Assembly: GCA_022709695.1 (NCBI GenBank)
Contig: JAKLII010000003.1
Span: 268,124 to 332,123, forward strand
Direction of reading: 5' to 3'
Length of the DNA: 64,000 nt
Source: Bacteroidota bacterium
GTDB lineage: Bacteria; Bacteroidota; Bacteroidia; Bacteroidales; SKPS01
A program made the translations under genes and the position numbers. The notes under the pieces are model-generated. The model saw nothing but the letters and a program-made list of their open reading frames with translations, searched no databases and was not told the DNA's origin. Below, in pieces: positions 2,696-50,570 of the stretch (its first letter is position 1; each line of letters opens with the position of its first letter).

Positions 2696-4483
2696 TTACA
2701 AAAAGTTACGGTTGTAATCGAGTATCTTTTGGGTATCAAGATGTATGTCTTTGATATTCAGCTGTAGGGTAACATTCCCGTTCCATTCGTTTTCCTCTAT
2801 CTGGTAACAGATTGAAAAAGGGATCTCTTTCTGGATGTCGTTTTTCTTTTCACCCTGCTGGAAGGCAATGGCAGGAAATACCGGCCCCAGACGGTCGGGG
2901 TCGATAATATCAAGCTTCAGATGATTATTCCCCACAATCCTTACAAAACCCTTGTCGATGACCTCATCTGTCATGAACACCGGGGTCATGTTTCCCGGGC
3001 CGAACGGGGCAAACTGCTTCATGATTTTGTAAAACTTAGGGGTGATATGCCCAAGTCCCAAAGGAGCATCAATCTCAATCTCAGGGGTTAGCATCTCATC
3101 GGTGATATGCCCGGCCACATAAGCGGTAAATTTTTTCTTGAAGGCATTGAAATTCTCCGGTTTCATCGACAAACCGGCTGCATAGGTGTGGCCGCCGAAA
3201 TGTTCCAGAAGGTCGCTGCAATGGTCAATGGCCTCATAGATATCAAACCCTTTTACCGAACGGGCCGAGCCGGTGTAAAGTCCGTTGTTGGTGGTGAGTA
3301 CAATGGTGGGTTTATAATGCACCTCCGTAAGCCTCGATGCCACAATCCCCAGAACGCCCTGCGACCAGCCTTCATGGAAAACCACCGTGGCCCTGGCCTG
3401 CTGAATTTTTGGGTCTGATGAGATCATCTCGAGGGCTTCATCAAAGGCCTGCATATCCTTTTCGCGCCTCTCCTTATTGAAGTTGTCGATTTGTTTGCCC
3501 AGTGTAACGGCGTAATCAGGATCTTCGCATATCAGCAACTCCACTGAGTTGCGGGCATCACCGATACGCCCTGCTGCATTGATGCGTGGCCCGATCAGGA
3601 ACACCAGATCGTTGATGTTCAGCTCACGGGTAAAATACACCGGATTGTACAGCTTTTCACTTTGTTTTACAGGAGTATACGACAAGATGGCCTCAATCCC
3701 TTTGCGGGGTTTTGTATTGATCAGCTTCAGGCCGTGGTAGGCCATAATCCGGTTCTCGCCCACGATCGGCACAATGTCGGAGGCGATACTGATCACCACC
3801 AGATCGAGGTATTTCTCAATTTCCTGAAACGGGATACCCCTGGTGGAGGCAATAGCCTGAATCAGCTTAAATCCAACACCACAGCCGGCCAACCCTTTGA
3901 AAGGGTAGGAGCAGTCGGGGCGCTTGGTATCGAGCACGGCCACCGCATCAGGGATCACATCCCCCGGCAAATGGTGGTCACAGATGATGAAATCGATCCC
4001 TTTCTCCTTCGCATATTCAATCTTCTCGTTCGCCTTGATGCCGCAATCCAGTGCGATGATCAGGCTGAAACCGTTCTCCTTTGCGTAATCAATGCCCATA
4101 TAGGAGATTCCGTACCCCTCTTTGTAGCGGTCAGGCACGTAAAAACCCAGTTTATCGTGAATCGTCTTCAGAAATGAGTACACCAGGGCCACGGCAGTGG
4201 TCCCGTCAACATCATAATCCCCGTAAACCATGATTTTCTCATCCCCGGAAACAGCCTGCTGGATGCGCGCTACTGCTTTGTCCATATCCTTCATCAGAAA
4301 AGGATCATGCAGGGTGTTTAAATCGGGCCGGAAAAAGGTTCGTGCCTCTTCGTATGTTTTTATGTCTCTCTGAACTAATAAATTAGCCAGGTTTTTGTCG
4401 ATGTTGAGGATGGTGGCCAGGTGATCCACCTCCTCCTCTTTTCCCTGGGGCTTCAGCACCCAGCGTTTGTCCGGAATTTGCAT
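2696..4483 (-). CDS. recJ: Single-stranded-DNA-specific exonuclease RecJ
   Basis: A 595-residue DHH-family 5'-3' exonuclease acting in recombination and mismatch repair. Visible motifs are VYGDYDVDGTTA at about residues 87-97 (metal-binding aspartates), ALDCGIK near 144, the signature CDHHLPGD at about 168-175, and a DHHA1 glycine motif (FGGHTYAAGLS) near 425. The C-terminal OB-fold region contains NHLKLDI. Length matches bacterial RecJ. It is first in a two-gene minus-strand unit with dnaG. A TATCTTTG box on the minus strand about 57 bases upstream of the start can drive both. Confidence 0.96.
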   Translation of the reverse strand: MQIPDKRWVLKPQGKEEEVDHLATILNIDKNLANLLVQRDIKTYEEARTFFRPDLNTLHDPFLMKDMDKAVARIQQAVSGDEKIMVYGDYDVDGTTAVALVYSFLKTIHDKLGFYVPDRYKEGYGISYMGIDYAKENGFSLIIALDCGIKANEKIEYAKEKGIDFIICDHHLPGDVIPDAVAVLDTKRPDCSYPFKGLAGCGVGFKLIQAIASTRGIPFQEIEKYLDLVVISIASDIVPIVGENRIMAYHGLKLINTKPRKGIEAILSYTPVKQSEKLYNPVYFTRELNINDLVFLIGPRINAAGRIGDARNSVELLICEDPDYAVTLGKQIDNFNKERREKDMQAFDEALEMISSDPKIQQARATVVFHEGWSQGVLGIVASRLTEVHYKPTIVLTTNNGLYTGSARSVKGFDIYEAIDHCSDLLEHFGGHTYAAGLSMKPENFNAFKKKFTAYVAGHITDEMLTPEIEIDAPLGLGHITPKFYKIMKQFAPFGPGNMTPVFMTDEVIDKGFVRIVGNNHLKLDIIDPDRLGPVFPAIAFQQGEKKNDIQKEIPFSICYQIEENEWNGNVTLQLNIKDIHLDTQKILDYNRNFL

Positions 4484-47390: not shown

Positions 47391-47444
47391 CAAAAAAAAA
47401 GAACCACCTGCCGGCTCATGATGTGTCTGTCAGCCGGCAGGTGG
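47391..47444 (-). terminator. Strong terminator of the cytochrome bd operon
   Basis: A perfect 13-bp stem (CCACCTGCCGGCT with AGCCGGCAGGTGG) and 15-base loop precede, on the minus strand, TTC and nine T. It lies 25 bases after the stop of the small 38-codon ORF, marking that ORF as part of the transcript. Confidence 0.92.
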
Positions 47445-47468: not shown

Positions 47469-47585
47469 TCAGCCTTCCTGCTGCCGCTTCTCGAACTTCC
47501 GGATGGCCCGGAAGCATACCCTCCAGGCGATCCATACCATTACCGGCCATGAGGCCAGCCATAAAATTTCAGGTAAATATTTCAT
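47469..47585 (-). CDS. Small membrane protein after cydB (CydX-like candidate)
   Basis: A 38-codon ORF, ATG at 47585 and TGA at 47469. The product starts MKYLPEILWLASWPVMVW and continues IAWRVCFRAIRKFEKRQ: one hydrophobic, tryptophan-rich helix (about 4-26) and a basic cytoplasmic tail. It lies between cydB and the operon terminator, where CydX/CydS-type single-helix subunits of bd oxidases are often found. The sequence is not obviously homologous to E. coli CydX, so position and character are the evidence. The leader is a 9-bp tandem repeat. Confidence 0.65.
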   Translation of the reverse strand: MKYLPEILWLASWPVMVWIAWRVCFRAIRKFEKRQQEG

Positions 47586-47591
47586 CTTACA

Positions 47592-47654
47592 AAACTTTTT
47601 AAACAATCTAAACAATCTAAACAATCTAAACTTCCTAAACTTCCTAAACTATTA
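47592..47654. repeat. 9-bp tandem repeat between cydB and the small ORF
   Basis: Seven consecutive 9-base units, each beginning AAAC on the plus strand: AAACTTTTT, AAACAATCT three times, AAACTTCCT twice, and AAACTATTA, which contains the cydB stop. It spans the whole gap between cydB and the small membrane-protein ORF. Confidence 0.9.
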
Positions 47655-48794
47655 ATACACATGACTGTCCGTATCCATCTCCTCCTTCGTGATCTTCTTC
47701 CGGCTCATCGACCACCATACATACCATATATACGCCAGTACGAAAGGCACCAGCAGTGAGACCCAGCTCATGGCTGTAAGGGTGGTATGGCTGGAGGAAC
47801 TGTTCCGGATATTGAGGGAACTCTGCAGGTCGTGTGCCGAAGGATAGTAGCAGGTGTTGTTGAACCCGGCCAGCAGGAACAGTGCAAGGACGGTAAGCAC
47901 GGTGCCAAGGCCGGTAAAGGTGAAGGCGGTTTCCTTCCCTTTAAAGATTCCGAGAAACAGGCCATAGAGCACCAGTAGCACACCCGCCAGGAGGAGGGCT
48001 GTATTGAGGGGCATCTGCAGGATGTTGTGCAGGTATTTGTACGATTCCATGCTAACCAGTCCGGTTTCAGGGTCATAGGCATATCCATCCTTAAACATCA
48101 GGTGGATCACAAAATAGAGGAAGAACACCAGAAACGGGATGGTATTCCGGATCAGGCTTTTCCGGATGCGTGATGCTACCTCTGCACTTTCAACCTGTTT
48201 ATGGATAAAGAGCGCTCCCAGGATGCGGGCAAGGAAAAATACCGCCAGCCCCAGTGCCACGTTATGAAGGTTCAGCACAGCCTCCAGGCCGTGGGCGGGG
48301 TGTGCCCAATAGGAAGTTGCAATCCCCTGATGCCCGAACTCCACCACGAAATTGGCGCCGTTGAAGAAGGTCCCCACAGCGGTGCCGATGAGGATGGTGC
48401 CCAGGAGTCCGTTGAGGAAGAGGAAGGTTTCAAAGGTCTTTCTGCCATATACATTGGCAGGTTTCGACCTGTATTCATAGGCGACAGCCTGGATCACAAA
48501 TGAAATCAGAATAGCGATCCACACCCAGTAAGCCCCTCCGAAACTTGTTGAATAGAAGAGCGGAAAAGAGGCAAAGAAAGCTCCGCCAAAGGTAACCAGG
48601 GTGGTAAAGGTGAGTTCCCATTTCCTCCCCAGGGCATTGATCAGCATTCTTCTGTCGGAATCGTTGCGGGCGAGGGTGTAGATGAGCGTCTGGCCTCCCT
48701 GTACGAACATCAGAAACACGAGCAGGGCGCCCAGTACCGATACAATCACCCACCAGTACTGTTGCAGTGCGTAATGTGAAAGGTTTGCGAACAT
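47652..48794 (-). CDS. cydB: Cytochrome bd ubiquinol oxidase subunit II
   Basis: A 380-residue, eight-to-nine-helix membrane protein of the terminal quinol oxidase. The N-terminal helix has FMVQGGQT-like residues (LMFVQGGQTLIYTLA), followed by RRMLINALGRKWELTFTTLVTFGGA near 48 and a C-terminal helix near 345-365. It forms the heterodimer with CydA and gives high-affinity oxygen respiration. It is one base after cydA. Confidence 0.96.
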   Translation of the reverse strand: MFANLSHYALQQYWWVIVSVLGALLVFLMFVQGGQTLIYTLARNDSDRRMLINALGRKWELTFTTLVTFGGAFFASFPLFYSTSFGGAYWVWIAILISFVIQAVAYEYRSKPANVYGRKTFETFLFLNGLLGTILIGTAVGTFFNGANFVVEFGHQGIATSYWAHPAHGLEAVLNLHNVALGLAVFFLARILGALFIHKQVESAEVASRIRKSLIRNTIPFLVFFLYFVIHLMFKDGYAYDPETGLVSMESYKYLHNILQMPLNTALLLAGVLLVLYGLFLGIFKGKETAFTFTGLGTVLTVLALFLLAGFNNTCYYPSAHDLQSSLNIRNSSSSHTTLTAMSWVSLLVPFVLAYIWYVWWSMSRKKITKEEMDTDSHVY

Positions 48795-48795
48795 A

Positions 48796-50352
48796 TCAGT
48801 TTCCTCCTTCTTCTTTAGGTCCGACTTTGACTTGCTTTACCATAATGGATATTTCAGCGATGAGCAGGGATGTGAATATCACCACAAACATCCAGAAGGT
48901 GGTCTGGACAGCGGTTGCATCAATCCGGGTCACGCCGGTCATGGTGGGCATGAGGTCCTGGATTACCCAGGGCTGCCTGCCCACTTCCGCTACAATCCAT
49001 CCGCACATCGAAGCCAGGTATGCAAAGGGGATGGCAATCACAGCGAGGCGCAGCCAGAATTTCTTCCGTTCCATCCTTCCCCTGAAGGTCCAAAGGAGCA
49101 CCATCGCAAACATCAGCACAAACAGCATCCCCAGCCCCACCATGATCCTGAAACTGTAGAATGTGAGCGGAATACTGGGAATCAGGTGTTTTTCATTGTT
49201 CTCGAAATAGCCATACCCGAAGTATCTGTAGTGTTTTTCCAGCAACGTCCTGGCAGCCAAAGCAGCCGAATCGTTTTGGTTCTTTTGTGCCTCTTTGTAA
49301 TCGGCCAGTGCCTGAATCGCAATCTTTCCGGAGGCGATTTTTTCTGCCACAGGAGGAATCCCTTGTTCAGCGTTTCCGTTAATGAGGTCTTTCACTCCGG
49401 GAACAAAAGCATCAGGGTTGAGATAAGCCATATAGGAAAGCATGTTCGGGATTTCAATCCTGTAGACAACCTCTTTTCCCGGTATGGTATCATCAGGATT
49501 ATCCGGATTTACAACAAAACCCAAAGCGGTAAGGTTTACCCCATTCTTCCCCTTAGCCAGGCCTTCCATGGCAGCGAATTTCATGGGTTGCTTGTGGGCT
49601 ACCTGTCTTGCCGAACCATCGCCTGTACCGATAGTCCCGAAAATACCCGCCAGCCCGAAGATGGATGCCACAATCATGCTTTTTTTGGCCAGCATCTGAT
49701 GCCTCCCTTTCAGCAGGAACCATGCGCTGATGCCGATCACAAATACCGCACTCAGCGTATAGGCACTGGTGATGGTATGCAGAAATTTGTTGATGGCCAT
49801 CGGGGAGAGGAATACATCCCAGAAGTTTGCCATCTCATTTCTGGCGGTATCAGGATTGAACTTCATGCCCACGGGATCCTGCATCCATGCATTGGCCACG
49901 AGAATCCAGAGGGCACTCAGGTTCGAGCCGATGGCCACCAGCCATGTGGAGGTAAGGTGAAATTTCTTGCTTACCCGGTTCCATCCGAAAAACATCACAG
50001 CAATGAAGGTGGTCTCCATGAAGAAAGCCATGATCCCTTCAATGGCCAGGGGAGCACCGAAGATATCCCCCACAAACCACGAATACTGCGACCAGTTGGT
50101 GCCGAATTCAAATTCCAGGATGATTCCGGTGGCTACCCCGATGGCAAAGTTGATCCCGAACAGGGTCATCCAGAATTTAGTGATCTTTTTCCATTCGGGA
50201 TTGCCGGTGCGAACGTAAATCGTCTCCATGATGGCAATGAGGAAAGTGATCCCGAGGGTCAATGGCACAAAGAGCCAGTGGTACATGGCCGTAAGGGCAA
50301 ACTGCCCCCTCGACCAGTCAATCAGTGTGTAGTCAAATTCAAACATAGGCAT
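48796..50352 (-). CDS. cydA: Cytochrome bd ubiquinol oxidase subunit I
   Basis: A 518-residue haem-carrying subunit. Family regions are SRGQFALTAMYHWLFVPLTLG near 14-34 (haem-ligand His), EGIMAFFMETTFIAVMFFGW near 107, LSALWILVANAWMQDPVG near 145, the quinol loop with KQPMKFAAMEG near 253-263 and a C-terminal WIVAEVGRQPWV near 455. It oxidises menaquinol or ubiquinol and reduces oxygen to water. Its ATG overlaps the last base of the DUF4492 gene stop. Confidence 0.97.
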   Translation of the reverse strand: MPMFEFDYTLIDWSRGQFALTAMYHWLFVPLTLGITFLIAIMETIYVRTGNPEWKKITKFWMTLFGINFAIGVATGIILEFEFGTNWSQYSWFVGDIFGAPLAIEGIMAFFMETTFIAVMFFGWNRVSKKFHLTSTWLVAIGSNLSALWILVANAWMQDPVGMKFNPDTARNEMANFWDVFLSPMAINKFLHTITSAYTLSAVFVIGISAWFLLKGRHQMLAKKSMIVASIFGLAGIFGTIGTGDGSARQVAHKQPMKFAAMEGLAKGKNGVNLTALGFVVNPDNPDDTIPGKEVVYRIEIPNMLSYMAYLNPDAFVPGVKDLINGNAEQGIPPVAEKIASGKIAIQALADYKEAQKNQNDSAALAARTLLEKHYRYFGYGYFENNEKHLIPSIPLTFYSFRIMVGLGMLFVLMFAMVLLWTFRGRMERKKFWLRLAVIAIPFAYLASMCGWIVAEVGRQPWVIQDLMPTMTGVTRIDATAVQTTFWMFVVIFTSLLIAEISIMVKQVKVGPKEEGGN

Positions 50353-50570
50353 TAGGATTTTGGTTTGGTGATGGCTTCAATCACGTAGTCTTTCCTTGCT
50401 TCATCTGTTTCGAAATTGGATTTCAGGAAGTTGGGAAAGAAGAAAATCTTCAGGATCACAAACATTACAAAAAGCTTCACCAGGATGATCACCCAGAGCG
50501 ACCTTCCCCAGGTCATCTCACGGAAGCCTGTAACGTAAAACCCGATGATCCGCCGGAATAGACCGGTCAT
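50352..50570 (-). CDS. DUF4492 family small membrane protein
   Basis: A 72-residue protein with one central membrane helix (WVIILVKLFVMFVILKIFFF) and charged ends; FRRIIGFYVTGFREMTWGR is the family-typical N-terminus. DUF4492 genes sit just before cydA in Bacteroidetes, suggesting an assembly or accessory role in bd oxidase. It overlaps the cydA start by one base. Confidence 0.88.
   Translation of the reverse strand: MTGLFRRIIGFYVTGFREMTWGRSLWVIILVKLFVMFVILKIFFFPNFLKSNFETDEARKDYVIEAITKPKS

Follow-up and report, generated by a model that had tools for sequence, protein, structure and literature searches.

A 38-codon open reading frame (ORF) downstream of cydB in a member of the Bacteroidales is very probably cydY (cioY). 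It closes a cydW-cydA-cydB-cydY operon and would encode a 38-residue single-pass subunit of a cytochrome bd oxidase of the long-Q-loop type. The ORF lies in the window, the 64,000-nucleotide stretch of DNA analysed here, and many relatives of gut Bacteroides that are free-living carry a counterpart downstream of their cytochrome bd genes. No report of CydY or CydX-like proteins in Bacteroidota was found in the open-access literature searched.

The cydWABY operon and its last gene

The operon runs along the minus strand of the window and contains the following features:

50352..50570, minus strand: cydW (DUF4492), small membrane protein of 72 aa, the operon's first gene (Pfam PF14899, E 1.1e-28)
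48796..50352, minus strand: cydA, 518 aa, long Q-loop type (PF01654, E 1.3e-163; Q-loop region of 166 residues)
47652..48794, minus strand: cydB, 380 aa (PF02322, E 1.2e-68; TIGR00203 above its cut-off)
47592..47650, no strand: 9-bp tandem repeats in the cydB-cydY spacer
47469..47585, minus strand: cydY (cioY), predicted 38-aa single-helix small subunit (conserved after cydB; purifying selection; homology to the Campylobacteria ORF after cydB)
47404..47444, minus strand: intrinsic terminator of the cydWABY operon (perfect 13-bp stem, 15-nt loop, then T-run)

Read on the minus strand from the ATG at 47585 to the stop at 47469, the 38 codons specify MKYLPEILWLASWPVMVWIAWRVCFRAIRKFEKRQQEG. The product contains four tryptophans and one hydrophobic stretch (best 19-residue Kyte-Doolittle mean 1.55, residues 7-25), past which the tail carries six Lys/Arg against two Asp/Glu. 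An earlier note on this DNA had placed the ORF between the cydB stop and a perfect 13-bp terminator, leaving its strand unstated, and had described a tryptophan-rich single helix with a basic tail; both descriptions hold. A gap of 66 nt separates the end of cydB (47652) from the ATG. The terminator stem pairs 47432-47444 with 47404-47416 across a loop of 15, continues into TTCTTTTTTTTT on the minus strand and folds at -30.9 kcal/mol (z -5.0). The spacer itself (47592-47650) is filled by tandem 9-bp repeats, TAAACAATC and CTAAACTTC, while the spacer of relatives is usually about 20 nt long. A 51-aa reading with a TTG start, from 47624, was set aside because homologues begin at the ATG.

Since the ORF is short and no clear Shine-Dalgarno motif precedes it in the window, it could be taken for a chance frame in a spacer or 3' untranslated region, but its conservation excludes this reading for practical purposes. 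Pooled over 19 independent close pairs (about 70-98% DNA identity), pS is 0.371 and pN 0.081, giving a dN/dS of 0.17, with 74, 42 and 182 differences at the three codon positions; in the other two reading frames of the same pairs pN/pS is 1.30 and 1.66. A single pair (L208/L215) has pN about equal to pS. In a gap-free comparison, DNA identity is 86% inside the ORF and falls to 49% in the 60 nt past the stop, and conservation extends across families and phyla. Judged by these substitutions, the cydY ORF is a gene. The earlier note had named lack of positional conservation, or of a coding-type substitution pattern, as grounds for giving up the ORF; with its place after cydB conserved and purifying selection evident, the ORF stands as a small membrane protein gene belonging to the bd-oxidase operon.

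Relationship to CydY/CioY and CydX

The name CydY was given by Allen et al. (2014), who describe a small protein encoded after cydB in 15 species of Epsilon- and Deltaproteobacteria, accompanying a long-Q-loop CydA and having an absolutely conserved Trp at the start of its helix (PMC4325964). CioY of Campylobacter jejuni (34 aa) is described as this same protein, and Trp, Pro and Tyr are reported as conserved in it, Trp and Pro strongly so; it is predicted to occupy a CydX-like seat on CioA, with which it undergoes reciprocal co-immunoprecipitation (PMC11955535, 2025).

A Helicobacteraceae metagenome-assembled genome (MAG; locus L214) among the loci of a genome scan (see below) opened a route to the class Campylobacteria, which was sampled as the class of G393, a Helicobacteraceae genome, the class being taken from L214. 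This sample comprised 121 genomes, 53 of them with a cydB over the cut-off, and 51 cydB loci were read, G421 and the partial G477 being left out. The Bacteroidales profile recognises an ORF directly after cydB in 48 of the 51 loci at E < 1e-3 (71 candidate ORFs) and in one further locus at E 0.0027; in G393 itself and in L313, no ORF was recognised after cydB. Most of the Campylobacteria ORFs are preceded by an AAGGAG-like site. Compared with each other, the Bacteroidales and Campylobacteria profiles align with E 4.2e-17 and a probability of 98.8. Judging by class, position, size and motif, the Campylobacteria ORFs appear to be the published CydY/CioY. Because of the profile match to these ORFs and the presence of published CydY/CioY in the same class, the window ORF is, as far as sequence can tell, the Bacteroidales form of CydY/CioY and not a new kind of subunit. 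The separate 'Bacteroidetes-type' small subunit proposed in the earlier note thus gives way to membership of a family already known from Epsilon- and Deltaproteobacteria (PMC4325964, PMC11955535).

The window protein shares with CydY/CioY its position after cydB, its length, a single helix, a Trp-Pro core, a long-Q-loop CydA, an upstream cydW/DUF4492 gene and the sequence profile. All 36 Bacteroidales members have Pro14 and at least 90% have Trp13, in agreement with the conserved Trp and Pro of CioY; both residues are present in the window copy, in which Tyr21, conserved in most members, is replaced by Trp and the family's conserved Ile17 by Val. The window form differs in its origin from Bacteroidales, in the lack of a strong Shine-Dalgarno site, in this Tyr-to-Trp exchange and in that its CydA binding is putative. 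That the ORF instead arose independently of CydY, as a CydX analogue specific to Bacteroidota, is highly improbable. Such a reading would accommodate the failure of the Pfam and NCBIfam CydX and DUF2474 models to match, and single-helix proteins are easily taken for kin, but it is opposed by the profile-profile alignment, by the cydW-A-B-Y order common to both groups and by the CydA clade that they form together (tree support 0.96). Searches of Pfam, NCBIfam and PDB with the window protein and 26 members returned weak, unrelated matches only, in keeping with the earlier note's description of the ORF as unlisted and overlooked.

CydX, which we take to be the family of PF08173/TIGR02106 in Alpha-, Beta- and Gammaproteobacteria, is a more distant case. 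The earlier note had seen no evident CydX homologue in the ORF, and at the level of sequence models this was right: the Pfam and NCBIfam CydX models match neither the window protein nor any of 26 members at E up to 10, no CydX match occurs in the window operon, and the N-terminal MWYFxWxLG of CydX is absent (12 CydX aligned against 36 members). At the level of profiles, there is a resemblance. The Bacteroidales profile aligns with the 12 CydX in hhalign with a score of 22.4 and a probability of 49, placing lW..SW on MWYFAW and the tail glutamate near E25; with Campylobacteria added or alone, the score is 26.6-26.8 and the probability about 80-81. No column-shuffled CydX profile scores as high, neither among 300 nor among 200 in a separate run, and the same holds for 244 natural helix windows taken from CydA and CydB. 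Against the 200 shuffles and 244 windows, the ungapped CydY-CydX alignment thus outscores all 444 controls, although single helices are weak ground for homology. In some Campylobacteria forms (L316, L297), W-P is replaced by W-I-L, and the CydX profile gives them weak scores.

The two families are alike in being encoded last, after cydB, in their length of about 37 aa, in a W-x3-W near the start of the helix and in an acidic residue at the start of the tail (E25 or FEK). They differ in that the cydY product has neither the MWYF start nor WxLG, has a Pro after the second Trp and a basic tail, and escapes recognition by Pfam and NCBIfam. The profile comparison suggests a shared origin, with the reservation due to any single helix. 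A tentative extension, which we consider slightly less probable than its opposite, would unite CydX and CydY in one ancient family: the ancestor of all long-Q-loop bd oxidases would have had a single-helix subunit encoded after cydB. Its descendants would be CydX in Alpha-, Beta- and Gammaproteobacteria and CydY in Campylobacterota and Bacteroidales, with a later loss in the stem lineage of the Bacteroides/Parabacteroides/Prevotella clade. CydZ (DUF2474; PMC4325964) and CydS (PMC13189123) are likewise described as single-helix bd-oxidase proteins, but both accompany a short-Q-loop CydA, unlike the long-Q-loop CydA of the window, and the DUF2474 Pfam model does not match the cydY family.

Distribution and history of the operon

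A first survey covered 99 genomes, nearly all of the window's order and one per family. Alignable proteins were found, and 27 of 30 retrieved loci contain cydB, with the ORF mostly just after it. A cydB is present in 69 of the 99 genomes, and it is of the window's long type in 63. The 64 long-type loci examined came from 63 genomes of the order and from G335, which has no ORF. Within 333 nt downstream of cydB, the ORF occurs in 36 of the 64 loci (36 of the 63 genomes of the order), and in 34 loci the distance is no more than 100 nt. The 28 genomes with no adjacent match were then searched in full with the profile, alongside two positives and one outsider; this added four copies at E ≤1.6e-9 (next match 0.014) and raised the total to 40 of 63. 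These lie about 550-600 nt downstream of cydB (G098, G090), at a contig end with the genome's cydB cut at another (G059), or as an orphan (G072). By adjacent-locus and whole-genome search, 23 of the 63 genomes with long-type cydB have no cydY. The gene is likewise missing from all 36 genomes of the order that have either no cydB or a cydB of another type alone; their best match (E 0.003) falls within a frame of 146 aa.

In a scan of 84,980 species genomes, 166 stretches matched and 113 were related, of which the best 80 were kept. Among these best 80 loci, cydB lies upstream of the ORF in 77, at a median gap of 21 nt and within 100 nt in 72; the other three are L208, where just 357 bases precede the ORF, and the orphan-like L214 and L255. 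Members include named strains of Marinifilum and Prolixibacter. An occurrence throughout Bacteroidota is not borne out: among 296 genomes drawn from the phylum (alignment A1), a convincing score was obtained only for the window's own gene, the other two matches (E 0.005 and 0.009) lying inside an 814-aa frame or containing a stop, and a Bacteroides/Prevotella clade is without cydY. The home order was thinly represented in this draw and many of the remaining genomes carry other, short-Q-loop oxidases, so the draw says little on long-type operons outside the order. In plasmid records, long-type operons of Parabacteroides, Bacteroides, Prevotella and Phocaeicola are without the ORF and a search for Campylobacterota operons found none; viral contigs searched for CydA yielded nothing.

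The Q-loop region of CydA measures 166 residues in the window and 161 in Escherichia coli, against 94-104 in seven short types. At the other end of the operon, cydW was named in Porphyromonas gingivalis, where cydWAB is described as one mRNA (PMC4668044). From position, size and gene order, the DUF4492 protein would be the CydW of P. gingivalis, and it is probably the unnamed upstream protein mentioned by Allen et al. (PMC4325964). A tblastn search places cydW/DUF4492 in 59 of the 64 long-type loci of Bacteroidales (of the five misses, two are at contig ends). Among 21 Campylobacteria loci with sufficient upstream DNA, 20 have it (one at E 0.024). The order cydW(DUF4492)-cydA(long Q-loop)-cydB-cydY is common to both groups. 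CydW resembles the cydY product as a small membrane protein of the same operon and lineages, but its gene lies upstream, its sequence is different and it is retained in a clade without cydY. It may be a second small subunit.

That clade emerged from a quick tree of 66 Bacteroidales CydA sequences, with the incomplete L139 and L141 omitted. It comprises 19 sequences (support 99), among them records of Bacteroides ovatus, Parabacteroides distasonis, Phocaeicola massiliensis and Prevotella nigrescens, and cydY is found in none of them, though cydW-A-B is intact; in the rest of the tree, it adjoins cydB in 35 of 47. A 50-sequence CydA tree groups Campylobacteria and Bacteroidales together (0.96), beside the CydX-bearing Proteobacteria, with a Bacteroidales node that is almost unsupported (0.155) and Campylobacteria not forming one clade. 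The simplest reading would be an early origin of cydY followed by later losses; a transfer between Bacteroidales and Campylobacteria is a possible alternative history.

Three copies lie away from cydAB, two in Bacteroidales and one in the Helicobacteraceae MAG, their neighbours being named from reading the sequence. In G072 (contig C112), the ORF at about 4368-4466 on the minus strand (L142) adjoins a putative dihydropteroate synthase-like (folP-like) gene, and the genome's own cydB (46% identical) has no cydY next to it. At L255 (1693-1794), the ORF lies between a putative DoxX-like gene and putative electron-transfer-flavoprotein genes. The Bacteroidales-like copy at L214 (4501-4611) lies between a putative GGDEF-type regulator and a phospholipase-D-like gene; the MAG's own cydB (L312) has no cydY after it and no DUF4492 match upstream. 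Five other loci (L321, L324, L327, L328 and L329) encode CydY forms of about 70 aa directly after cydB, with a signal-like N-terminal extension and in operons with a deep-branching CydA (three in the tree). Such an extension would fit a topology with the N-terminus outside.

Proposed role of CydY in Bacteroidales

All 36 members carry more Lys/Arg after the helix than before it, and the basic tail makes it likely that the N-terminus lies outside and the tail in the cytoplasm. In E. coli, CydX is described as a clamp that lies against CydA helices 1, 5 and 6, its Glu25 acting as a float on the cytoplasmic face (PMC6853902), and as able to bridge a dimer (PMC13189123). By analogy with CydX and with C. 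jejuni CioY, the cydY helix most likely packs on CydA, where it could hold the haem-bearing helix bundles together and support assembly or stability of the enzyme. The same role is proposed for CydY as for CydX because position, charge pattern and family are shared; for the Bacteroidales protein, we infer this CydA-clamping function from CioY and CydX.

The product might alternatively be a small membrane protein that the cyd operon encodes but that is no stoichiometric part of the oxidase, such as an assembly helper or a co-transcribed regulator of another membrane complex. This would sit well with the orphan copies away from cydAB (L142, L255, L214) and with the 23 of 63 genomes that have the oxidase and no cydY. 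It is nonetheless unlikely, as cydY is confined within the order to genomes with a long-type cydB (0 of 36 of the others), and the Campylobacter homologue is reported to co-precipitate with CioA (PMC11955535). Under the favoured reading of a CydA-bound subunit, the oxidase can do without cydY in those 23 genomes, and since one large clade runs the same oxidase in this way, CydY would be an aid rather than a universal requirement.

The window gene extends an experimentally supported, little-known subunit (CioY, 2025) to a phylum where a 2015 study of P. gingivalis reported none, and describes a family held by neither Pfam nor NCBIfam, with aligned members from named strains such as Marinifilum and Prolixibacter. 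Two questions thereby become testable: why gut and oral Bacteroidales operate this oxidase in the absence of cydY, and whether a single ancestral subunit gave rise to both CydX and CydY.
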